Translations under genes and position numbers: made by a program
Notes under the pieces: model-generated
What the model saw: the letters and a program-made list of their open reading frames with translations, nothing else
What the model was told of the DNA's origin: nothing
The model's database searches: none
Assembly: GCF_000429925.1 (NCBI RefSeq)
Contig: NZ_AUCU01000042.1
Coordinates: forward strand, 1 to 36,716
DNA length: 36,716 bases
From: Desulfatirhabdium butyrativorans DSM 18734
GTDB lineage: Bacteria > Desulfobacterota > Desulfobacteria > Desulfobacterales > Desulfatirhabdiaceae
Direction: 5' to 3'
Shown here: piece by piece, positions 5,381 through 24,780 of the stretch
Numbering within the stretch: position 1 is the stretch's first letter
Layout: every line of letters starts with the position of its first letter

Positions 5381-7498
5381 ATGCGTGAACGAGCTGGCGG
5401 ATTTGCGGGTAAGGTTCTCCGGGTAGATCTTTCAACCGGTAAAATCGGCTTCGATGACACCGTGGATCGATACCGGGAGGTACTGGGAGGCACTGGTATC
5501 GGGTACCAGGTGATGTGGGAGGAAGTGCCCCCCGGGACGGCTCCGTTCGATGCCGCCAACAAGATCGTTTTCGCAACCGGTGTTCTGGCGGGAACCGGTG
5601 TGCCCTGCAACGGTCGAACGGCCGTAACCACGCTGTTTCCATCGTGCTGGCCCAAGCCGCTTGTGGCAAGCGGGCACATGGGCGGCCAGTTCGCAGCCAA
5701 ACTCAAGTATGCCGGTTACGACGCTTTGATCGTGGAAGGCAAGTCGGACAAGCCGGTATGGATCATGATTCGGGATGGAATGGTGCAGGTGCGTGACGCG
5801 GGGCATTTGTGGGGTTGCGGCATTCGCCGGACCACGTTTGAGATCAGCCGGGAGATGGGTCCGGATTGCGTTGTGGCGGCCATCGGTCAAGCCGGAGAAC
5901 ATCTTGTCCCCCTGTCCGTCGTCATGAATTCCGCATCCCATTCCGCAGGTGGTGTGGGAGCGGTGATGGGCGCCAAGAACCTCAAGGCCATCGGGGTGCA
6001 GGGCAGTGGCGCCGTGCGCATCGCCGGGGATCGATCCGAGTGGGAGCGCCTGGTCAAGTTTCATCTGTCCATCCTGGGAAGCAACAACCAGCATGTGGTG
6101 CCGAGCTTTCCGCATCCGCAGGCGGAGTACTACAATCCCTCATCCCGCTGGGTGGGAGCTCCCGGGAGACGATGGGGCGCAGCCGAACCCCCGGTCGAGA
6201 TCAATGGCGGTCTTTTCGATTTGAACCGGATCGCCTTTCGCGCCAACAACGGCGTCTTCTATCTGGGCGAGCAGGTATGGCAGCATACGGTGCGTGGCAA
6301 CGGATGCACCGGCTGCCCCATTCGTTGTCACACCATCATCAAGGTTCCCTCGGTTGCCGCCAAATACGGTATCCGGGAAGTCGCCCAGAATACGTGCGTC
6401 GGATTGCTCTTTGGCCGATCCTTTTTTAGAACGCTCCCCGGTGGTCTCATGTCCCAGGCCGCGCTGGAAGCGAGCATGGTCGGCATGCACCTGGCGGACG
6501 ATCTGGGAATCTGGTGCAATTATGGCCAGTTGCAGCGGGATATGATCAAACTCTACTACGAAGGTACGCTCCATGACAGGCTCGGCTCCAAGGAGTATGC
6601 ATCGTATTCCTGGGACAAATTCGAAAACGGCGATCCACGGTTTCTTTTTGAAATCATTCCCCGCATTGCCATGCGCCAGGGTGAATTGGCGCATGATCTC
6701 GGACTTGGCACCGGATACCTCCTGGATCGCTGGTCCATTCCGGAAACGGCATGGACCGGGGACATGGTCAGCTCCTACTGGAAATTCGGTCATCCAAAAC
6801 ACCACGCCAATGAAGACGACGGGCAGTGTGGCGTCATCATCAACACCCAGTACAATCGCGACGCACAATGTCATTCGCACGTGAATTTCATCCGAAACGG
6901 TCTGCCGCTGGCGATCCAGAAGAAACTGGCAGCCGAGATTTGGGGCTCGGGCGATGCCGTTGACGCCGTAGGCGCCTATACGCCGATGAACATTCACAAA
7001 GCCCGGCGGGCGAAATGGTCATTGATCCGCAAGGAACTTCACGACAGCCTCGGTTTGTGCAATTGGATGGGACCTTGGGTGGCATCGCCGATCAAAGCGC
7101 GTGGCTATTCGGGAGATGACAGTCTGGAGTCCCGGTTCTACAGCCTGGCAACGGGTCATCAAACGAGTCGCGAAGAACTGGACCGGATCGGCGAGCGGAT
7201 TTTCGTCCTGCACCGGGCGCTTACGATTCGGGATATGGGGGAGATCGACATGCGCCGGCGGCACGATCTTTACCCGGAATGGATCTTCCGGGATTCAAAC
7301 GATTCCCAGCCTTTCACGAAGGGTACTATCCGGATGGATCCGCTGGATATTGCCAAAGCCATGGACATGTTCTATGAAGTCATGGGCTGGGGGAAGGAAT
7401 CCGGGGCGCCGACAGCCGAAACGTATGCACGATTGGGGCTCAAAGCGGTAGCACAGGAACTGGCCGCAAAACGCCTTGTTCCGGGGGCGCAACCATGA
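5381..7498 (+). CDS. YdhV-like aldehyde ferredoxin oxidoreductase family enzyme
   Basis: A 705-residue catalytic subunit of the AOR family (tungsten or molybdenum bis-pyranopterin cofactor plus one [4Fe-4S]). It opens with GKVLRVDLSTGKI and follows E. coli YdhV closely along its length (VPPGTAPFDAANK, AAIGQAGEHLVPLS, GAVMGAKNLKAI, LCNW). Cluster ligands visible are C309, C312, C316 and C339 in CTGCPIRC and NTC. The length equals YdhV (about 700) and exceeds archaeal AOR (about 605). No signal peptide is visible although the ferredoxin partner has a Tat-type leader. GGAG precedes the ATG by 7 nt; a TTGACA at 5265-5270 lacks a good -10. The gene overlaps the next by 4 bp. The reaction of this clade is not established; with two acyl-CoA ligases upstream, aldehyde oxidation or carboxylate reduction is inferred. 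Confidence 0.88.
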   Translation: MRERAGGFAGKVLRVDLSTGKIGFDDTVDRYREVLGGTGIGYQVMWEEVPPGTAPFDAANKIVFATGVLAGTGVPCNGRTAVTTLFPSCWPKPLVASGHMGGQFAAKLKYAGYDALIVEGKSDKPVWIMIRDGMVQVRDAGHLWGCGIRRTTFEISREMGPDCVVAAIGQAGEHLVPLSVVMNSASHSAGGVGAVMGAKNLKAIGVQGSGAVRIAGDRSEWERLVKFHLSILGSNNQHVVPSFPHPQAEYYNPSSRWVGAPGRRWGAAEPPVEINGGLFDLNRIAFRANNGVFYLGEQVWQHTVRGNGCTGCPIRCHTIIKVPSVAAKYGIREVAQNTCVGLLFGRSFFRTLPGGLMSQAALEASMVGMHLADDLGIWCNYGQLQRDMIKLYYEGTLHDRLGSKEYASYSWDKFENGDPRFLFEIIPRIAMRQGELAHDLGLGTGYLLDRWSIPETAWTGDMVSSYWKFGHPKHHANEDDGQCGVIINTQYNRDAQCHSHVNFIRNGLPLAIQKKLAAEIWGSGDAVDAVGAYTPMNIHKARRAKWSLIRKELHDSLGLCNWMGPWVASPIKARGYSGDDSLESRFYSLATGHQTSREELDRIGERIFVLHRALTIRDMGEIDMRRRHDLYPEWIFRDSNDSQPFTKGTIRMDPLDIAKAMDMFYEVMGWGKESGAPTAETYARLGLKAVAQELAAKRLVPGAQP

Positions 7499-16356: not shown

Positions 16357-16529
16357 CGAAAAATTGGGGTAGGGATCAATACACGTGTTCCCTACGACAG
16401 GCTTCCGTCAGAATGACGGGTTGGAAATCATCCATGGGGGTGGTGACTTCCGTTGGCATGACGGGAGGGGATATTCTTCGACTTTTGGCAAGTTCATCGA
16501 GATGGACAATAAAAAAGGGGGATTCTGGA

Positions 16530-17348
16530 ATGAATGCGGTGAAGACGGATGAGATCCGCCAGACGGTTCGAGAAAAATATGGCAGGATTGCTGGGGGCAA
16601 TGGCATAGGTTGCTGCTCTGGCGGCGGAAGCGGGTGCTGCGGTTCGCAAATCGGCGATCCCGGCATGATCTCCAAAGGCCTTGGATACAGTGATGATGAT
16701 GTTGGCGCGGCTCCTCAGGGGGCGAACCTGGGACTTGGTTGTGGGAATCCAACGGCGATAGCGGCGCTCAGGCCGGGAGAGTTCGTTCTGGATCTGGGTA
16801 GCGGCGGAGGGTTCGACTGTTTTCTGGCAGCCGGACAGGTCGGGGAGACGGGGCATGTCATCGGCGTGGACATGACACCGGAGATGATCTCCAAGGCAAG
16901 GGCCAATGCGGAACAAGGCGGCTATCGCAACGTGGAATTCCGTCTTGGTGAAATTGAGAACCTGCCGGTGGCCGACGGCATCATCGATGTGATTCTCTCC
17001 AACTGTGTCATCAACCTGTCGCCGGATAAAGCCCGGGTCTTTGCGGAAATGTTCCGGGTATTGAAGCCGGGAGGCCGGTTGGCCATCTCGGATGTGGTCG
17101 CCTGTGGCGAGATGCCGGAGGAAATCCGCAGGGACATGGCCTTGTACACGGGGTGCATTGCAGGGGCTTCCCCGGTATCGGATATTGAACGAATGCTGGC
17201 GGATCGGGGTTTCGTCGATATTCGCGTGTGCCCGAAGGATGAAAGCAAATCCTTTATCCGGGACTGGGCTCCGGGAACGAATGTTACCGATTATGTGATT
17301 TCAGCAACGATCGAGGCCGTCAAACCAGCCAATGTGTCGTTATTCTGA
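16530..17348 (+). CDS. arsM: Arsenite S-adenosylmethionine methyltransferase ArsM
   Basis: A 272-residue cytoplasmic methyltransferase converting arsenite to methylated arsenicals with SAM. The SAM-binding motif VLDLGSGGGFD lies at residues 87-97, followed by VIGVDMTPEM. Arsenic-binding cysteines are visible at C71 (LGCGNP), C159 (SNCVINLSPDK) and C209 (YTGC). The N-terminal Gly/Cys segment has two CC pairs (28-29 and 36-37), common in ArsM. The start is set at 16530 by a GGGGG run 8 nt upstream and the family-like opening VREKYGRIA; a longer frame upstream lacks an RBS. No arsR, arsB/acr3 or arsC gene is nearby, so the gene stands alone between a divergent transporter operon and a convergent gene. 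The upstream gap (16286-16529) shows only the transporter promoter. Confidence 0.92.
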   Translation: MNAVKTDEIRQTVREKYGRIAGGNGIGCCSGGGSGCCGSQIGDPGMISKGLGYSDDDVGAAPQGANLGLGCGNPTAIAALRPGEFVLDLGSGGGFDCFLAAGQVGETGHVIGVDMTPEMISKARANAEQGGYRNVEFRLGEIENLPVADGIIDVILSNCVINLSPDKARVFAEMFRVLKPGGRLAISDVVACGEMPEEIRRDMALYTGCIAGASPVSDIERMLADRGFVDIRVCPKDESKSFIRDWAPGTNVTDYVISATIEAVKPANVSLF

Positions 17349-17432
17349 ACCATCACTGTTGTGACTTCTTGGAGTATGCCAACGGAACATGTGGTGCTGT
17401 TGGGGAACAAGCCAATTCGGTCCATTTGGGCA

Positions 17433-17513
17433 GTGCCTGAACGGAAAGGCCCCATTCGGAGCAGTGCGCCGCCTGCGGGCGGGCTGTACCCAAAACGGGT
17501 TTTCCGTTGAGGC
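17433..17513 (+). repeat. Dispersed palindromic repeat, copy C
   Basis: Runs from GTGCCTGAACGGAAA to TTTTCCGTTGAGGC, arms that pair over about 14 bases, with the core ATTCGGAGCAGTGCGCCGC between. It is an 81-bp sequence lying between the convergent ends of arsM and the polyglycine protein gene. As a hairpin-forming element with A-rich and T-rich arms, it may act as a bidirectional terminator here. Confidence 0.6.
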
Positions 17514-17532
17514 AATAGATGGCCCAATGGAA

Positions 17533-18657
17533 TTATCTTCCACCGCCACCACCGCCACCACCGCCACCACCACCACCTCCACCACCGCCGCCGCCACCTC
17601 CACTGCCGCTACCGCCGCCAGGTCCGGATCCGCCGGCTCCGGCAGCGGATGCGCCTCTGCCGGTAGCGCCATGCGTCGCTTCCGGGTTGTCATGCTTTGC
17701 GCCGCTTGCCTGGAGGCTCTTGGCGGTTTCATGAAGCAGGACGGCCAAAGTCACCTTCGGTTTTCCGCTTTCCCGCTGCAGCGTTAGGATGAACCGCTCC
17801 GAAAGCTGATTGACGGAAATGGATGGCCCGCATTCCAGAAATGCATTGGGAAGGGATTGCAGCTCCGTTGTGGATGCCGTCGAACGAATGGCGTGGATGA
17901 GGACTTGCGCGACGAGGGGCGGGGAAATGCCTAAGCGTGCAAGATCTTGGGATGTTGTCAGAATTTGGCTGATAGCCGATGAAGATCGGGAAGCCTTCGA
18001 TGTATCTTGCAGGGCATCCTCGGATGCATGGATGATCGAATCGATTTGCACCATGGACAGGCCCGATGCCATTGCTTCGGCGATACCGTTTGCGATTTGG
18101 TTATTTTCGGGTTTCGGAAAAGAAAAATGCTGTGATGTATAGTGATAGGCCGTCTGATATCGGTCGTGGACCCGGCGAAGGGCTTCGCGTATCTGGGAGT
18201 TGCCCACGCCTTTTGCCAACCCTTCAAACGCCTTGTCCATCATCGGCTGCGCAGGCAACCCATCGTCGATGGTGCCCCGGATGGCTTGCAGGATGGCGTT
18301 GGCGGATTCGATATCCGATCCCGCTGCAAGCATCTGCCGGGCCAGGCGGTTGACATCCGCCGCTGGAACGAAACGCTCGATCAGGGCATCAACCGATGGT
18401 TTCAGGGCATCGGGCAGATCATCGGCGGGAAAGCCCCGATCGGGGAAGTACAGGCAAAAGACGGCAAGGACGAAGAGTATCTTGCTGAAACGGGATGCGA
18501 ATCGCAGGGTTTGGGAGAGCAGCCCAGTCCCGGCGATCCATCTTCCCGAAAGTCCGAGCATCGGCAATGCCCAAGGAAAGCGAAGCTCGCCGGGAAAGAA
18601 AGCGATGGCGCGCCGAAGCTGCATCATTGCGCTGGAATCAGGATATCCGTTTCTCAT
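17533..18657 (-). CDS. Exported protein ending in a 21-residue polyglycine tail
   Basis: A 374-residue protein of unknown function, third in the ECF sigma operon (8 bp after the anti-sigma gene). Around residues 56-70 a hydrophobic stretch (KILFVLAVFCLYF) preceded by basic residues looks like a signal peptide or anchor, so the true start may lie inside the frame; no convincing RBS is seen at any candidate. Residues 80-320 are helical and Ala/Ser-rich. Residues 330-352 become Gly/Ser/Ala-rich and the chain ends in 21 consecutive Gly plus Arg, encoded by a GGT/GGC/GGA microsatellite (17539-17601). I recognise no domain. An exported surface or matrix protein controlled by the sigma factor is inferred. 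Confidence 0.7.
   Translation of the reverse strand: MRNGYPDSSAMMQLRRAIAFFPGELRFPWALPMLGLSGRWIAGTGLLSQTLRFASRFSKILFVLAVFCLYFPDRGFPADDLPDALKPSVDALIERFVPAADVNRLARQMLAAGSDIESANAILQAIRGTIDDGLPAQPMMDKAFEGLAKGVGNSQIREALRRVHDRYQTAYHYTSQHFSFPKPENNQIANGIAEAMASGLSMVQIDSIIHASEDALQDTSKASRSSSAISQILTTSQDLARLGISPPLVAQVLIHAIRSTASTTELQSLPNAFLECGPSISVNQLSERFILTLQRESGKPKVTLAVLLHETAKSLQASGAKHDNPEATHGATGRGASAAGAGGSGPGGGSGSGGGGGGGGGGGGGGGGGGGGGR
17539..17601 (-). repeat. In-frame polyglycine microsatellite
   Basis: Twenty-one consecutive Gly codons, mostly GGT and GGC with four GGA, form a trinucleotide tract directly before the final Arg and stop. Such tracts change length by slippage; because it is in frame, unit gains or losses alter only tail length. 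A serine-interrupted Gly-rich stretch continues to about 17640. Confidence 0.85.
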
Positions 18658-18665
18658 GGTGGTCG

Positions 18666-19235
18666 CTATCCGATGCGGAGAATCGAATTGACGGTCCCGA
18701 AATCATCCGCCTCTTTCAGGGGTACGGTTGGATCGGCCATTCGGGATTTTCGATCCAGCAGGATGCTGTAGCGGTATTCTCCGGGTTTCATGGAAAGGGT
18801 CAATTCCCAGTATCCGTCAGCGCCGGTCGGTTTCATGGGAATGGGGTTCCAGTTGGAAAAACTTCCGGCAATTTCCGCTTGCCGGGTATCGGGGGCATAG
18901 ATCACGAAGCGGTGTGAAATGGGCGCCGGTGCGGTTGCCGTCATCGGAACGGGATCCGGTTTGTATCCGATCAACAGAAACAGCAAGGCTGCTGCAACCG
19001 GAATGGCCGCTGCCCATCGCCACCAGGAAAAGGCGGGCTTTTCCCGGTGGCGGGATGCAAGATTCAGCATGGGACGATCCAACTTCACCCGGCGGGCGAG
19101 AACCGCCTCCTGTTCGAGAAGCCCGATGGCTTTTTCACAGCAGGCCGGATCGTTCCGAATCGATCGCAGGAAAGCGATTTTTTCCGAAAGACTGAGTTCA
19201 TCGTCGATAAATTGGCTGATGAGCGTCGTTTCCAT
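18666..19235 (-). CDS. Membrane anti-sigma-like protein with C-terminal CBM48 (glycogen-binding) domain
   Basis: A 189-residue protein in three parts. Residues 1-60 form a helical cytoplasmic region with an anti-sigma-like start (LISQFIDDELSLSEKIAFL). Residues 71-91 form one membrane helix (WWRWAAAIPVAAALL). Residues 107-189 match an AMPK-beta/isoamylase-N type carbohydrate-binding module: AGSFSNW (123-129), GYWELTL, GEYRYSILLD and FGTVNSIL. W129 and N183 align with the glycogen-contacting Trp and Asn of AMPK beta; the second Trp is not kept (S/R there), nor is the key Lys (Arg here). The gene begins 7 bp after the ECF sigma gene, so anti-sigma function is inferred from position and architecture. 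By topology the sugar-binding module should face the periplasm. Confidence 0.8.
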   Translation of the reverse strand: METTLISQFIDDELSLSEKIAFLRSIRNDPACCEKAIGLLEQEAVLARRVKLDRPMLNLASRHREKPAFSWWRWAAAIPVAAALLFLLIGYKPDPVPMTATAPAPISHRFVIYAPDTRQAEIAGSFSNWNPIPMKPTGADGYWELTLSMKPGEYRYSILLDRKSRMADPTVPLKEADDFGTVNSILRIG

Positions 19236-19242
19236 GACTACC

Positions 19243-19710
19243 TCATTTCAGGGCTTCCCGAAGCCGCATTCTTGCCCGATGCACCCGAATGCGGACGTTC
19301 CCCTCCGAAATTCCCAGGATCCTGGCAATATCCCCATATCCAAGCTCATCGTCTCCCGAGACGAGGGCGAGAATTTCCCGATCTTCCGCTTTCATCTGCT
19401 GCAGGGCTTCGAGCGTACGTCGGAATTCGCTGTGTACCGTTGCATCCATCTCAGGATCGTTTCGTTCATCGATCAGCAACTCGGTCAGCGACGTGTCGGG
19501 TTTCCTTTTCCGGAAGGCATCGATCATCAGGTTCCGGGCAATTCGATAGAGCAGGGCAGGTTCGATTCGATCGACGCCATATCGGGATGCATAGCGCAGA
19601 AATGCGTCCTGGGTCAAATCCGCAGCGAGATCGGCATTGGCGCACAGCCGAAGCAGGTATCCATAGAGCCGGTCCCGGCTGGTGCGGTAATAGGTTTCAA
19701 GATCGGTCAT
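19243..19710 (-). CDS. ECF-type RNA polymerase sigma factor
   Basis: A 155-residue sigma-70 family protein of extracytoplasmic-function type, with only regions 2 and 4. Region 2 spans about residues 5-70, with DLTQDAFLRY at 31-40 (core binding) and YRIARNLMIDAFRKRK (-10 recognition). Region 4 spans about 97-150, with the helix-turn-helix YGDIARILGISEGNVRIRVHRARMRLR (-35 recognition). The linker between is short. It is the first gene of a three-gene operon with the membrane CBM48 protein and the polyglycine protein, so its activity is probably restrained at the membrane. No ECF-type autoregulatory promoter is obvious in the upstream 100 bp. Confidence 0.9.
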   Translation of the reverse strand: MTDLETYYRTSRDRLYGYLLRLCANADLAADLTQDAFLRYASRYGVDRIEPALLYRIARNLMIDAFRKRKPDTSLTELLIDERNDPEMDATVHSEFRRTLEALQQMKAEDREILALVSGDDELGYGDIARILGISEGNVRIRVHRARMRLREALK

Positions 19711-19774
19711 GTGATTGAGGGGTTCGGGATTTCACTGGCGGCCTCAAAAATGGATCAAAGGGCTCGGATTTGCC

Positions 19775-19793
19775 GCTGCTTCGCAAAAGCAGC
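19775..19793. promoter_or_regulatory. Perfect hairpin upstream of the ECF sigma gene
   Basis: Arms GCTGCTT and AAGCAGC with a 5-nt loop lie 65-83 bp before the sigma start codon. It could be an operator or an RNA hairpin in the leader; nothing else supports a role. The rest of the gap 19711-20367 up to position 20035 holds nothing I recognise. Confidence 0.25.
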
Positions 19794-20131
19794 CACTCTC
19801 CCCATGCTCGGGTCTGGAACCAGCTTGAAATCGGGGTTGGGGAGACGCGTTGCGAGATGGCCATCTGATACGATAACGAAAAGGGGCTGGTTTTGTTACA
19901 CGAAGAACGAATCCGCAATTGCCCAGGCAGAAATCCGGTTAAATGGGATGGGCGTTTCCATCAGGCCGGGATGAAACGCTTGTCTGATTTGTGCGGCCTG
20001 ATTTGGATGGACCCGCAATCAATGTTCATGGTGGAGTCGCCGCCTCTGGCGATGAAAATTCGGTCGTCATTCCGGCGAAATCCCGCCAGTGGCGGGAGGA
20101 ATCCTGAAACTTGGCCCAACGCTGGACCTCG

Positions 20132-20367: not shown

Positions 20368-21705
20368 TCAGCCGATTTCCCGCCGCACGATGCCGGCGAG
20401 GGTCTCCGCCAGATAATACACCAGGCTTTTGGTGGGGCCTTCCACCATCACCCGGCACAAGGGCTGGGTGCCGGAATATCGGATCAGCACCCGGCCTTCA
20501 TTCCCAAGCTGCTCTTCCACCCGCCGGATTTCGGCCTGCAGATTCGGCAGCTTTTCAAGCTCCGGTTTATGGCTGACAGGCACGTTCAAGAGCATCTGGG
20601 GAAACACGCTCATGATGGATGCCATCTCCGAGAGTGCCCGGTCTTCTGCGGAAAGCACGTTCAGCAGCGTGATGGCCGATAGCATCCCATCCCCTGTCGT
20701 GTGCCGATCCAGAAACAGGATATGCCCGGAATCTTCTCCGCCCAGGATCGCACCGCACCCTTTCATGGTTTCCATGACATGACGATCGCCTACCTTGCTG
20801 CGGATATGGACAATCCCATGCTGTTTGAGCATGACCCCGAGGCCCATGTTGCTCATGACGGTGGTGACCACGGGCTTGTTACGCAGTCTGCCCGATCTCC
20901 GGAAATGATCGGCGAAAATGGCGATCAGTTGGTCGCCGGTCAATACCCTGCCTGTGTCGCCAACCGCCACAACCCGATCGGCGTCCCCGTCGAAAGCGAA
21001 ACCGACGGCTGCCCGCATCTGGAGGACCCGGTTGGCGAGTTCCTGCGGATGCTCCGATCCGCAATTCTCGTTGATGTTGGTGCCGTCGGGGCTGTTGTGG
21101 ATGCAATCGACGCGCGCCCCCAACCCTTCAAAGACTTGTTGGGCAATCGAGGAGGCCGCGCCGTTGGCACAATCGAGAACGACGTGAATCCCCTGGAGCG
21201 AGAATGCCGCATCGACGCTGTCCAGCAGAAAATCCCGGTAGGCCGTGACGGCTTGAGGTTCATATCGGACCATTCCGGGTGATGTATCGCGGGATACCGG
21301 TCTGGCCTCGATAATCAGGGATTCGATGGCTTCTTCCTGTTTTCGGGAAAGCTTGAACCCCGCGGCGTCGAAAAGCTTGATCCCGTTGTCCGTGTACGGA
21401 TTGTGGGATGCGGAGACGACGACTCCGGCAGATGCGGACAGGTGCCGCACCAGATAAGCGACGCCGGGTGTGGGGACGACTCCGAGAAGAACGACATCCG
21501 CTCCGACAGCGGAAATGCCTGCCGCAAGGGCATGGGCAAACATATCCCTGGATTGTCTGGTGTCGGTGCCGACCAGAATCGGCGCATGCGTTTTGGGTAA
21601 AAAATGGCGGCCGATGGCCATACCGATCTGCAGGACCGTTTCGACATTCATCGGCATTACGTTTACGGCTTGCCGGATTCCGTCCGTGCCAAACCATTCA
21701 TGCAT
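20368..21705 (-). CDS. glmM: Phosphoglucosamine mutase GlmM
   Basis: A 445-residue enzyme interconverting glucosamine-6-phosphate and glucosamine-1-phosphate for peptidoglycan and LPS precursors. The phosphoserine loop VVVSASHNPYTDNGIK holds the catalytic Ser at about residue 100, the metal loop is DGDADR, the sugar loop GEDSGH, and the phosphate loop RYSGTQP, where Gln replaces the Glu of the usual SGTEP. The start at 21705 (MHEWFGTDGIR) is preferred over an ATG three codons earlier because AGGAG directly abuts the earlier ATG but is 9 nt from this one. It is the last gene of the operon typA, LbH protein, glmM; the upstream stop TAG overlaps its Shine-Dalgarno sequence. Confidence 0.92.
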   Translation of the reverse strand: MHEWFGTDGIRQAVNVMPMNVETVLQIGMAIGRHFLPKTHAPILVGTDTRQSRDMFAHALAAGISAVGADVVLLGVVPTPGVAYLVRHLSASAGVVVSASHNPYTDNGIKLFDAAGFKLSRKQEEAIESLIIEARPVSRDTSPGMVRYEPQAVTAYRDFLLDSVDAAFSLQGIHVVLDCANGAASSIAQQVFEGLGARVDCIHNSPDGTNINENCGSEHPQELANRVLQMRAAVGFAFDGDADRVVAVGDTGRVLTGDQLIAIFADHFRRSGRLRNKPVVTTVMSNMGLGVMLKQHGIVHIRSKVGDRHVMETMKGCGAILGGEDSGHILFLDRHTTGDGMLSAITLLNVLSAEDRALSEMASIMSVFPQMLLNVPVSHKPELEKLPNLQAEIRRVEEQLGNEGRVLIRYSGTQPLCRVMVEGPTKSLVYYLAETLAGIVRREIG

Positions 21706-21717
21706 GTGTTGCATCTC

Positions 21718-22938
21718 CTATGGTTCCATCAGTGATGGACAAAGCCCGCCAACGATCTGGCGCATGCCCGAATCGACCAGCCCCTGAAGCCACGCCTTGC
21801 CTGTTTCAGCCGATTCCAGGTCCAATCCCCGAATCGTATCGATATAGCGATCGCCATGGCGATCCATCGCCTGCCGAATGGATTGGAGCAGGCTCTCGAG
21901 CGCTTTGCAGGCTCCTTCCTCCTGCATCAGCGAATCGACGATTCCGGGCAGCGCACCGGCGTTTTCCGCCAGTTCGTTCTGGCGCATGGCCTGAGGGCCA
22001 GAGGGTTCGTTTTCGCGCGGCATGTTGCGGGTATATTCCCCCAATCGTTTCACCCGTTCCCCGATGGCGATATCGAGGGTGGCGCACAACCCGCCGTGGA
22101 GGGCTTCCGAAAACCGCTCACCGACGAACAGCGCCCTGATGTGCCGGTACCATTGCCGCAGCGCCAGAAGATTGGCGATATACCGGGCGTTGTTGAGCAC
22201 GATCCGTTTGAGACTCAGGTGCAGGCCGGGCGTGAATTCGACATTGACGCTTCTGGCTCCGCCATCCTGGATCAGCCGGTTGGGCCTTGTCTCATCCTTG
22301 CGGACAATGGAGCCGGCCGCCACAACCGTGCCATAGCTCAGCACGCAGGGGCCGACCATCCCGCCTTGACCGCCCAGAAAAATCGGGCGCTCCCGGAGCA
22401 TTACCCCAGCGGGGACATCCCCGATCAAAGACGGAGTCGCCTTGTCCTGGTTCGGGGTGAAGTTGAAATGGATGTAGGCGCTGCCGACTTCGCTGTGGTT
22501 CTTGCGGCTGGTTCCCCCGGCCATGAAACAGTCGCAGAAATTGATGAGACTGCCCAGGGTGACGAAAGGGAAGAGGATGGTCTGCTTCAACGCCACGGTA
22601 TGCCCGGCAAAGGATTGCTCCTCCATGATCGTGCCTTCGCGCACATGGGCGCCGCTGTTGAAGCCGACATCATCGAGAAAGACGGATTTTGCGAAATAGC
22701 CGCCCCGCAAATCCACCCGCCTGCCGATCCAGCAGTCCACGATGGTGACCGGCGCTTCGGCGCCGATGCTCGAACCTTCTGAAATCAGGGTGTTTGCACC
22801 GGAAAGCCGGGTGCCGGCATGCAGGATCACACCGGGTGCGATTCGCTCCGGATCGATCTCTTCCCCGATCTGGACACTGGCCGGGCAGGGGATGATGACG
22901 CCCCGCCGGATCAGGCGCTCCACCATGGAAGCCATCAT
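21718..22938 (-). CDS. Left-handed beta-helix (GlmU C-terminal-like) protein
   Basis: A 406-residue protein. Residues 15-235 show the imperfect hexapeptide pattern of left-handed beta-helix acyltransferases and GlmU C-termini (IGEEI, APGVILHAGTRL, ISEGSSIGAEA, VTLGS, VGPCVLSYGTVVAAGSIV). The N-terminal LxxGxGTRM nucleotidyltransferase signature of GlmU is absent. Residues 250-406 are helical and not recognised. Its ATG follows the typA stop directly (TGAATG), with GGAGGG inside the typA end, and its stop runs into the glmM RBS. Position next to glmM suggests a sugar-1-phosphate or hexosamine step such as acetylation or uridylyl-GlcNAc formation, but the activity is unproven. A second ATG one codon on is possible. 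Confidence 0.7.
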   Translation of the reverse strand: MMASMVERLIRRGVIIPCPASVQIGEEIDPERIAPGVILHAGTRLSGANTLISEGSSIGAEAPVTIVDCWIGRRVDLRGGYFAKSVFLDDVGFNSGAHVREGTIMEEQSFAGHTVALKQTILFPFVTLGSLINFCDCFMAGGTSRKNHSEVGSAYIHFNFTPNQDKATPSLIGDVPAGVMLRERPIFLGGQGGMVGPCVLSYGTVVAAGSIVRKDETRPNRLIQDGGARSVNVEFTPGLHLSLKRIVLNNARYIANLLALRQWYRHIRALFVGERFSEALHGGLCATLDIAIGERVKRLGEYTRNMPRENEPSGPQAMRQNELAENAGALPGIVDSLMQEEGACKALESLLQSIRQAMDRHGDRYIDTIRGLDLESAETGKAWLQGLVDSGMRQIVGGLCPSLMEP

Positions 22939-24780
22939 TCATCCCTCCGCCTTGAGTTTGGCGGAACGCAGGGTATGCCGTTTCTGGGCATCGAGCACTG
23001 CCTTGCGCATCCGGATCGATTTGGGGGTGACTTCCACCAGTTCGTCATCCATGATGAAATGGATGGCCCGCTCGAGGGTCATGGCCTTGACCGGGGAGAG
23101 GATGATGTTTTCGTCTCGGCCTGCAGCGCGCATGTTGCTGAGTTTCTTCTCCTTGCAGGGGTTGACGTTGATATCGTTGTCCCGGTTGTGCTCGCCGATG
23201 ATCATGCCCTCGTACACCGGGGTGCCCGGCGTGATGAACAACTGGCCGCGCGGTTCGAGGTTGAACAGGGCGTAAGCGACGGCCTCGCCCCTGCGGTCGG
23301 AAACGAGCGAACCGGTAAAGCGCGTCGGGAAATCCCCCCGGTAGGGTTCATACCCGCTGAAATAGGAATTCATGATCCCCGTGCCCTTGGTGTCGGTCAG
23401 GAATTCGTCCCGGTAGCCGATGAGCGAACGGGAAGGAATGCTGAATTCGATGCGGACCCGTCCCCGGTTGTGGTTCACGAGGTTGAGCATTTTCCCCTTT
23501 CGCAGGGAGAGCTTTTCGGTGACGATGCCCAGAAAATTTTCGTCGCAGTCCACCAGCAGGCGCTCGATGGGTTCGAGTTTTTCGCCGTTTTCCTCCTTCA
23601 GAATGACATGGGGCCTGCCCACGCACAGCTCGAAGCCTTCCCGTCGCATCGTCTCGATCAGGATAGCCATCTGGAACTCTCCCCGGCCCTTGACGAGGAA
23701 GGTTTCCTTGTCTGTGGTCTCTTCGATGCGGATCCCGACATTCATGAGGGTTTCCTTGAACAGGCGCTCCTTGATCCGGCTTGACTGCACGTAGCGGCCC
23801 TCTTTTCCGCCGAACGGGGAATCGTTGATCCGGAAGACCATCGACACCGTGGGCTCATCCACCCGGAGTCTGGGCAGTTTGGCCGGGGTCAGGCGGTTGC
23901 AGATGGTATCCCCGATTTTGACGTTGTCGATACCGGAAAGCACGATGATGTCTCCAGGCTCCGCGCTGTCGACTTCCTTGAGGACAAGGCCCTGATAGGT
24001 CTGAAGCCGGGAAATCTTGAGGGGCACCTGGCGCTCGTCGGCATCGATACAAATCAGGCTGTCGTGAAAGCGGGCGGTGCCGTGAACGATTTTTCCGATG
24101 GCAAGCCTGCCAAGGTAGTCCGAGTAGCTCAAATCCGATACCAGCATTTGGAATGGGGCCGCCGGATCATACGTCGGGGGCGGGATTTCCTTCAGGATGG
24201 TGTCCAGGAGCAGGGCAAGGTCCTGCGGTTCCTCCCCGATCTCTTTCCACACGAGACCATCCCGGCCGACGGCATAGAGCAGGGGAAAGTCGAGCTGTTC
24301 TTCATTGGCGTCCAGATCGATGAACAGATCGTAGATTTCATCGAGCACTTCGTTGATACGGGCATCCTTTCGATCGATCTTGTTGATGACGACGATGACC
24401 TTCAGCCCGCGATCGAGGGTTTTTTTGAGCACAAACCGGGTCTGGGGAAGCGGCCCCTCGGAGGCGTCGACCAGGAGCAGCGCGCCGTCGGTCATGGAAA
24501 GGGCCCGCTCCACTTCGCCGCCGAAATCGGCATGACCCGGCGTATCGACAATGTTGATCTTGACGTCATTCCAGATGACGGAACAGTTCTTGGCGGCGAT
24601 GGTGATGCCGCGTTCGCGCTCGAGGTCCATCCGGTCCATGATGCGTTCGGCCACATCCTGGTTGTCCCGGAACAGGCCGCAACGCCGGAACATGGCATCG
24701 ACCAGCGTGGTTTTTCCATGATCGACGTGTGCGATGATGGCGACATTGCGGATTCGTTCATTGACTGCAGTAGATTTCAT
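22939..24780 (-). CDS. typA: Ribosome-associated GTPase TypA/BipA
   Basis: A 613-residue translational GTPase that acts in ribosome assembly and stress adaptation. G motifs: AHVDHGKT (residues 17-24), RGITI (switch I), DTPGH (G3) and NKID (G4), followed by an EF-G-like domain II with VxxGxx strands, and C-terminal domains III/V plus the TypA-specific C-terminal domain (GRDENIILSPVKAMTLERAIHFI). Length is typical (about 605-615). It is first in the operon with the beta-helix protein and glmM. No strong promoter is visible in the 100 bp upstream; a perfect dyad lies at 24876-24890. Confidence 0.96.
   Translation of the reverse strand: MKSTAVNERIRNVAIIAHVDHGKTTLVDAMFRRCGLFRDNQDVAERIMDRMDLERERGITIAAKNCSVIWNDVKINIVDTPGHADFGGEVERALSMTDGALLLVDASEGPLPQTRFVLKKTLDRGLKVIVVINKIDRKDARINEVLDEIYDLFIDLDANEEQLDFPLLYAVGRDGLVWKEIGEEPQDLALLLDTILKEIPPPTYDPAAPFQMLVSDLSYSDYLGRLAIGKIVHGTARFHDSLICIDADERQVPLKISRLQTYQGLVLKEVDSAEPGDIIVLSGIDNVKIGDTICNRLTPAKLPRLRVDEPTVSMVFRINDSPFGGKEGRYVQSSRIKERLFKETLMNVGIRIEETTDKETFLVKGRGEFQMAILIETMRREGFELCVGRPHVILKEENGEKLEPIERLLVDCDENFLGIVTEKLSLRKGKMLNLVNHNRGRVRIEFSIPSRSLIGYRDEFLTDTKGTGIMNSYFSGYEPYRGDFPTRFTGSLVSDRRGEAVAYALFNLEPRGQLFITPGTPVYEGMIIGEHNRDNDINVNPCKEKKLSNMRAAGRDENIILSPVKAMTLERAIHFIMDDELVEVTPKSIRMRKAVLDAQKRHTLRSAKLKAEG

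Follow-up and report, generated by a model that had tools for sequence, protein, structure and literature searches.

Membrane anti-sigma factors with extracellular carbohydrate-binding modules (CBMs) are known from Clostridium, where they are called RsgI; in Clostridium thermocellum, RsgI is encoded beside its sigma factor, SigI, and the pair is autoregulated (PMC4711584, excerpt). In the RseA-type class I systems, an extracytoplasmic function (ECF) sigma factor is paired with a single-pass anti-sigma factor whose N terminus is cytoplasmic (N-in) (PMC7406223, excerpt). An accessory envelope protein is encoded in the operon. Here we analyse a 36,716-nucleotide stretch of Desulfatirhabdium butyrativorans DSM 18734 (NCBI contig NZ_AUCU01000042.1; hereafter the window, which is contig C28 of the source genome searched, 4.48 Mb and 97% complete). 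Three adjoining minus-strand genes in the window encode an ECF sigma factor, a membrane protein with a CBM48-like domain that is probably an anti-sigma factor, and an exported protein with a glycine (Gly) tail. We propose that these genes probably form a self-amplifying ECF sigma/anti-sigma envelope switch whose regulon is small, lies mostly nearby and consists of exported Gly-rich proteins.

The locus resembles SigI/RsgI in that a membrane anti-sigma-like protein with an extracytoplasmic carbohydrate-binding-type domain is encoded beside a sigma factor with predicted autoregulation. It differs in that the sigma factor is of the ECF type, with regions 2 and 4, and is not SigI; in that the domain is a CBM48 that has lost two glucan residues and is accompanied in relatives by a paralogous lipoprotein, whereas RsgI carries CBM3, PA14 or GH10 domains; and in that the predicted targets are exported Gly-rich proteins rather than cellulosome genes (for RsgI and its targets: PMC4711584, excerpt). 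RsgI and SigI families were absent from the Pfam matches of the window proteins (E ≤ 1) and from the families listed for 66 members of the anti-sigma family, and by sequence the module would not be classed as a SigI/RsgI system. With the RseA-type systems the module shares the ECF sigma factor, the predicted N-in single-pass anti-sigma factor and the accessory envelope protein, but here the ectodomain and the lipoprotein share an AMPK-beta-type domain, there is a dedicated Gly-tailed helical protein, and the regulon appears small and local. The accessory envelope protein of RseA-type systems is RseB. No CBM48- or AMPK-type anti-sigma factor was found in the open-access literature searched; the ECF reclassification, outside this search, might list the sigma group. 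A word search of PMC7406223 and PMC8103513 found no carbohydrate or glycogen terms, and the account of Desulfobacterium autotrophicum merely counts ECF and anti-sigma proteins (PMC2702500, excerpt). The system appears to be undescribed in the open-access papers searched, and a prior listing in ECF group definitions is possible.

A conserved module around the sigma gene

The three genes are separated by gaps of 7 and 8 bp and encode proteins of 155 (19243..19710), 189 (18666..19235) and 374 residues (17533..18657, as listed); all features of the operon lie on the minus strand. This is the layout reported in an initial annotation of the window, whose observations were confirmed as a whole and whose interpretation was supported in part. 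The first protein matched Pfam Sigma70_r2 (E = 6.9e-10, residues 8–70) and Sigma70_r4_2 (E = 2.5e-11, residues 98–150), with no region 3 family at E ≤ 1, and it scored 72.2 bits against TIGR02937, above the cut-off; its best NCBIfam match was the SigM subfamily, below the cut-off of that model. With regions 2 and 4 and no region 3, it is by its family matches an ECF sigma factor.

AlphaFold2 modelled the second protein (predicted local distance difference test, pLDDT, 86; predicted template modelling score, pTM, 0.50) as three N-terminal helices, a transmembrane helix and a beta-sandwich. The N-terminal helices (residues 2–10, 16–25 and 30–52) make up a putative cytoplasmic anti-sigma domain (residues 1–66; 19038..19235). 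The single membrane helix that the initial annotation had described was recovered as a hydrophobic helix at residues 74–92 (18960..19016, by hydropathy only), and 81 of 83 family members have one such helix by the same measure. Lysine and arginine (K/R) averaged 3.3 in the 15-residue flank before the helix and 1.5 in that after it (83 members), a bias that points to an N-in/C-out topology and places the CBM module outside the inner membrane, as had been suggested. Adjacency to the sigma gene (79/80 loci), a single membrane pass and the predicted N-in orientation are traits of class I anti-sigma factors. The ectodomain (residues 104–189; 18669..18926) matched AMPK1_CBM (E = 1.6e-7, residues 116–188) and CBM_48 (E = 2.9e-6, residues 108–158), and AMPK1_CBM was present in 66/66 aligned members of the family. 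The top Foldseek matches of the model in the PDB were AMPK-beta subunits (E = 6.4e-8), and VIA-align superposed the domain on 1z0m with Z = 14.0 and a root-mean-square deviation of 1.4 Å over 81 residues. Structure prediction thus bears out the glycogen-binding-type module read from the sequence in the initial annotation; by modelled fold and family profile, the ectodomain is a CBM48/AMPK-beta CBM.

A scan of genome contigs gave 120 relatives, and unless another set is named our locus counts rest on the best 80 of these, with adjacency judged by our own distance rules. The anti-sigma gene was adjoined by the sigma gene in 79/80 loci, by a lipoprotein gene in 76/80 and by the Gly-tail gene in 74/80, and all four genes were present in 72/80; this co-occurrence is far beyond chance. 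The layout recurs in relatives, and the arrangement that the initial annotation called a three-part one is indeed conserved, although in the window it is reduced: most relatives have a fourth gene, for a small lipoprotein, between the anti-sigma and Gly-tail genes, and the window lacks it. Besides eight from Deferribacterota, the 80 loci come from Desulfobacterales, Desulfobulbaceae, Syntrophaceae and other "Deltaproteobacteria", with a small number labelled just "Proteobacteria" or "uncultured bacterium". Eight loci lack the full set by our distance rules. Two of them, L049 and L074, contain the sigma and anti-sigma genes with neither lipoprotein nor Gly-tail gene, and count against the proposed switch; in L050 and L062 the Gly-tail gene was not found; in L108 the lipoprotein gene is not adjacent; L068 and L076 stop at contig ends; and in L058 the sigma gene is present beyond the distance rule. 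In L108 an inverted lipoprotein-family open reading frame (ORF; 6751-7092) lies ~1.2 kb downstream of the anti-sigma gene.

Among 57 genomes, the source genome included, relatives of the anti-sigma protein were full-length in seven others and, in an eighth (G021), matched from residue 101 on; in all eight, the anti-sigma and Gly-tail genes flank a short ORF that encodes a lipobox-like Cys and, near its C terminus, a pair of Cys residues. The G021 locus (L042), in which the sigma gene and the anti-sigma N terminus are split over frames, is a pseudogene or an assembly error; because of the broken frame it is not counted in the anti-sigma family. In a phylum sample of 395 genomes, 70 gave some anti-sigma match and 19 a full-length one. 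Divergence was correlated from part to part of the module (r = 0.55–0.77 over 76 loci), which shared ancestry alone could produce. We also looked for a larger conserved cluster, an idea ruled out by the neighbour counts: no further family was found in more than 8/80 loci (BLAST clusters at 1e-12). The family alignments (A4, A5 and A6) comprise 66 anti-sigma sequences (of 83), 56 Gly-tail sequences (of 77) and 60 lipoprotein sequences (of 79), after removal of redundant sequences, ORFs cut at contig ends, a single Gly-tail ORF that was too long and four atypical ORFs of the lipoprotein family.

The Gly-tail protein of the window matched no Pfam family at E ≤ 1, and among the 56 members of alignment A5 no family recurred; six families were matched by one member each, at best with E = 7.9e-4. 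Its start in the window is uncertain because the listed ATG lies ~56 residues upstream of the hydrophobic signal stretch (residues 57–71 of the listed ORF; 18445..18489, located by hydropathy only, without a signal-peptide predictor). The mature domain (residues 78–325; 17683..18426) is predicted to be all-alpha (AlphaFold2 pLDDT 93.2, pTM 0.88). Against solved structures, Foldseek gave a best E of 8.7e-3 and VIA a best Z of 12.3, to designed helical repeats and within the range typical of common helical arrangements; the modelled domain has no convincing relative in the PDB. PDB matches of a further alignment of this protein (A2) were set aside, having fallen mostly on the Gly tail. The tail is encoded by 9-bp tandem units (17540..17620), and the last residue of the protein is Arg. 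The K, E, G and K of a K..EG..K motif are identical in 77/77 members, the last 50 residues contain at least 30% Gly in 75/77, and K or R occurs within the last four residues in 63/77. The protein was found once in each of the nine module genomes among the 57 described above; in G026, a weak Gly-tail match directly follows the CBM48 match. The Gly-tail protein thus seems to belong specifically to this system and not to be a general-purpose effector.

A predicted promoter and a small regulon

We observed a GTAAC...CGTT pair upstream of the sigma gene in 60/81 loci; five mononucleotide shuffles yielded no pair with a count above 7. GTAAC-N16-CGT was found in 62/81 loci, with identical spacing in 62/62 matches; the search pattern admitted spacers of 10–16, with a mild scoring preference for 12–14. 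In the window, TGTAAC-N16-CGTTA lies at 19874..19900, 163 nt 5' of the sigma start, and is the sole exact match in the genome. Promoters of the Bacillus SigW/SigM type read TGAAAC-N16-CGT. The elements and spacing found here are similar, with the difference that the sequence is TGTAAC-N16-CGTTA and that the sigma transcript would often be leaderless: the 33-bp site ends at most 9 nt before the sigma start codon in 49 of the 62 loci with the motif, and a Shine-Dalgarno-like word stands within the final 18 nt in 4 of the 49. On these grounds we predict that the sigma mRNA has no leader or almost none, a prediction that extends to Desulfoluna limicola. An ECF-type promoter, TGTAAC-N16-CGTT(A), thus appears to precede the sigma gene, and such an AAC/CGT-type promoter of its own, with the autoregulation it predicts in 62/81 loci, is a further trait of an ECF sigma factor.

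A position weight matrix (PWM) of this site, scanned over 86 loci (819,836 bp, with L035 and L036 being duplicates of L046 and L047), gave 176 matches of at least 13 bits, compared with 1 for the reversed matrix. At a threshold of at least 16 bits, 140 matches were found in 80 loci, of which 55 precede the sigma gene by construction, these being the training set. A further 37 precede the Gly-tail gene and 27 (in 26 loci) other exported Gly-rich ORFs, a class defined by a hydrophobic N terminus (hydropathy only) and a Gly content of 14% or more; for comparison, that rule is satisfied by 60 of the 901 ORFs selected from these loci. The rest precede other exported-looking proteins (5), cytochrome c peroxidase-like genes (2), lipoprotein genes (2), other genes (4) or none (8). 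The initial annotation had proposed the exported Gly-rich protein as a target of the sigma factor. This is supported in relatives, in which the Gly-tail gene has its own copy of the predicted promoter in 37/80 loci; the Gly-tail gene of the window has no such copy.

The promoter also tracks the module across genomes. The strict form TGTAACCTT-N13-CGTTAT occurred in 9 of the 395 phylum genomes, and its reversed control in 1. All nine are among the 19 genomes with a full-length module protein (Fisher 1.6e-13); some of the strict-motif genomes also fed the PWM, and the absence of the motif from the 376 genomes lacking a full-length module protein is independent of that. The nine sites precede the sigma gene (G303, G418), the Gly-tail gene (G384, G160, G186), genes for exported Gly-rich or repeat proteins (G261, G304, G002) or an ORF of unclear kind (G260). 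A second form, TGTAACCWTT-N12-CGTT, gave 18 matches in 14 of 24 module genomes, compared with 1 for the reversed control, and 15 of the 18 could be assigned to the module, either from their coordinates or because the site was identical. Each of the three off-module sites lies 92–183 nt ahead of a gene for a small, exported-looking repeat protein, which in two cases is of the GPGDGTG type.

Several observations weigh against a sigma factor with a regulon of this kind. The strict motif had no match in 10 of the 19 genomes with a full-length module protein, nor did TGTAACCWTT-N12-CGTT in 10 of its 24. The looser TGTAAC-N16-CGTTA gave 30 matches in 23 module genomes compared with 28 for the reversed control, and just 16 of the 30 could be placed before the sigma gene (11) or the Gly-tail gene (5); the remaining loose-motif matches are informative one by one only. 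The strict sigma-proximal motif was absent in 19/81 loci, including 7 of the 8 Deferribacterota, although in nine of the 19 (L046, L047, L071, L072, L082, L092, L097, L119 and L120) a site precedes an exported Gly-rich gene upstream of the sigma gene. Some PWM sites were counted on both strands because the motif is near-palindromic, and the loci that trained the matrix share ancestry. DNA coding for GPGDGTG occurred in 13/25 genomes with the module and also in 4/20 without it. In the source genome, the single TGTAAC-N16-CGTTA site (19900-19874) scores only 14.5 bits, and the 300 nt upstream of a GPGDGTG-type exported gene on contig C53 (L202) hold no motif.

The window holds no second PWM site of at least 13 bits; with a single site, none further in the window and none at L202, the regulon in this organism may be the operon alone. 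A genome-wide regulon defined by the loose motif TGTAAC-N16-CGTT was rejected: the source genome gave 5 matches compared with 10 for the reversed control, and by eye no exported Gly-rich gene lies downstream of the four off-module sites. The best reading of these sequence data is a small regulon, mostly beside the module.

Some further genes with or near predicted sites are recorded here. GPGDGTGNG-type repeats form small exported-looking proteins at L048, L055, L063, L105, L107, L115, L202, L205, L206 and L215. Four exported GPGDGTG-repeat or poly-Gly proteins tested matched no Pfam family, and the literature searched yielded no paper holding "GPGDGTG". Di-haem cytochrome c peroxidase-like genes with a predicted promoter (16–21 bits) lie near the module at L055, L057, L059 and L041, and a flanking family of similar appearance occurs in 8/80 loci; Pfam CCP_MauG was matched (E = 9.9e-37) for the L057 protein, the others being judged by eye. 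PAS-like proteins, also judged by eye, have a predicted promoter upstream at L075, L079 and L098, and that of L079 has several Cys pairs and no Pfam match at E ≤ 0.05.

The paralogous lipoprotein and the signal

The fourth gene of the relatives bears the marks of a bacterial lipoprotein, with a signal peptide and a lipobox Cys: a strict regular expression matched 61/79 sequences, and Cys occupies the aligned lipidation site in 77/79. Its domain aligned with the ectodomain profile at 99% in hhalign (E = 9.3e-18) and by this comparison is a paralogue of the anti-sigma ectodomain; no Pfam CBM family was matched at E ≤ 0.01 among 60 aligned members. The place of AMPK-beta1 W100 is taken by F or Y in 77/79 lipoproteins, a Cys89/Cys102 pair is present in 77/79, and Asp follows the lipid Cys in 0/77. 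We looked for a remnant of this gene in all six frames of 17300-19900 and rejected it (best E = 2.5 apart from the anti-sigma domain itself); elsewhere in the source genome, the sole match was one stand-alone CBM48 protein.

The signal could come from interaction between these domains, an account that we hold tentatively and rate somewhat below an even bet. CBM48-like domains would then be protein-interaction modules only, and across the periplasm the ectodomain and lipoprotein would contact one another or the helical protein. Envelope state, lipoprotein mislocalisation or proteolysis would serve as the signal. RseA/RseB-type and RcsF-type circuits are models for such signals. The alignment of the two profiles fits this account, as do the conserved lipidation Cys and Cys pair and the lack of Asp after the lipid Cys. 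However, the +2 lipoprotein sorting rule that gives the last point its meaning stems from Enterobacteria, and the window has no lipoprotein yet keeps sigma factor, anti-sigma factor and promoter. A more elaborate idea, which we consider unlikely, is a secretion-homeostasis circuit in which the two AMPK-beta-type domains, of anti-sigma factor and lipoprotein, read the state of exported Gly-rich protein, not glucan, by way of the Gly-tailed protein, and a nearly single-operon sigma factor with a leaderless mRNA sets the output.

The initial annotation had favoured sensing of an alpha-glucan or envelope glycan. In AMPK-beta1, the residues critical for glucan are W100, K126, W133 and N150 (PMC4032982, excerpt). 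With columns set by HMMER alignment to 1z0n, the equivalents were present in 83/83 (W100), 0/83 (K126), 0/83 (W133) and 82/83 (N150) members of the anti-sigma family. The domain is therefore like the AMPK-beta glycogen-binding domain (1z0m, 1z0n) in fold and in the W100 and N150 positions, and unlike it in being periplasmic by prediction, in its fusion to a transmembrane helix and N-terminal helices, and in the absence of K126 and W133. By alignment, only two of the four residues of the glucan-contact set are kept, and alpha-glucan sensing is set back because K126 and W133 are gone in all 83 members. The source genome also encodes two stand-alone CBM48 proteins of 114 residues (L002 and L003), and these do have K126- and W133-like residues (YKFVMDDIW and YKFMVDGKW); at L002 the gene is followed, by eye, by a small gene whose product contains Cys and by a ferredoxin-like gene. 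The plant protein AKINbeta2, which has both Trp residues but neither K126 nor N150, still bound starch (PMC4032982, excerpt), so loss of two residues leaves binding possible. That the periplasmic domain binds an alpha-glucan or another envelope or extracellular glycan and so frees the sigma factor is improbable in our estimate: the CBM48 fold, the retained W100 and N150 and the extracellular CBMs of RsgI (PMC4711584, excerpt) speak for it, but K126 and W133 are lost, and by eye no glycan enzyme was recognised among the recurrent neighbours or predicted targets. This reading concerns the signal alone and is compatible with the switch. A protein or non-glucan envelope ligand is the more likely signal, rather than glycogen or starch.

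The N-terminal domain bears on whether the membrane protein is an anti-sigma factor at all. In 45 aligned N-terminal domains, S7, D11, E13 and K19 are invariant; D11 in helix 1 of RseA is a conserved sigma4 contact (PMC7406223, excerpt). Evidence from known families is less favourable: zf-HC2 matched, weakly, just 10/45 domains at E ≤ 0.1 (best 1.2e-5), NCBIfam anti-sigma models matched only 3/66 members, and an N-terminal profile found nothing in the PDB at E ≤ 10. These weak matches would suit mere co-transcription of a sigma factor, controlled otherwise (for example by its own transcription), with a CBM48 protein that is no anti-sigma factor, which we judge very improbable in view of the pairing in 79/80 loci, the N-terminal helices, single membrane pass and N-in topology, and the invariant S7, D11 and E13, the correspondence of this D11 to that of RseA (PMC7406223, excerpt) being putative. 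The membrane protein is probably an anti-sigma factor, and the sigma/anti-sigma signalling unit proposed at the outset is backed by the conserved pairing and by the ECF-type promoter with its predicted autoregulation.

The proposed switch and its setting

The gene set, predicted fold, residue loss, topology signals, promoter and promoter-module link were computed directly; sigma binding, sigma release, the signal, the role of the lipoprotein and the role of the products we infer. In the envelope switch that we favour, the cytoplasmic N-terminal helices of the membrane protein would hold the sigma factor in the resting state. The sensor would be the periplasmic AMPK-beta-type beta-sandwich, minus two of its four glucan-contact residues, probably helped by the paralogous lipoprotein where this is present, that is, in most relatives and not in the window. 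A periplasmic event at the CBM48-like domain would free the sigma factor, which is predicted to read TGTAAC-N16-CGTT(A) at its own promoter, amplifying itself from a usually leaderless transcript, and to raise the output of the helical protein with the Gly tail and of a few exported repeat proteins rich in Gly. Most likely, the switch would adjust the amount of an exported Gly-rich layer, probably at the surface or in a matrix.

In the window, the operon is convergent with a methyltransferase gene (16413-17348; Methyltransf_31) that has a Cys-rich N terminus and is arsenite-methyltransferase-like by eye. Upstream on the same strand (20368-24780) are a phosphoglucomutase/phosphomannomutase-family gene, a gene with no Pfam match at 1e-5 and a BipA/TypA GTPase gene; the phosphoglucomutase and BipA/TypA stretch is not among the recurrent neighbours of the module in 80 loci.

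These results describe, in a bacterial envelope, a candidate pair of receptor-like paralogues that share the AMPK-beta fold. They also link a sigma factor, by prediction, to exported GPGDGTG-repeat and poly-Gly proteins. They give an ECF system of Desulfobacterota and Deferribacterota a concrete promoter, a predicted regulon and a four-gene definition. Carriers with strain-level genome records include Desulfoluna limicola ASN36, Desulforhopalus singaporensis DSM 12130 and Desulfogranum marinum DSM 2058, which makes the system directly testable.

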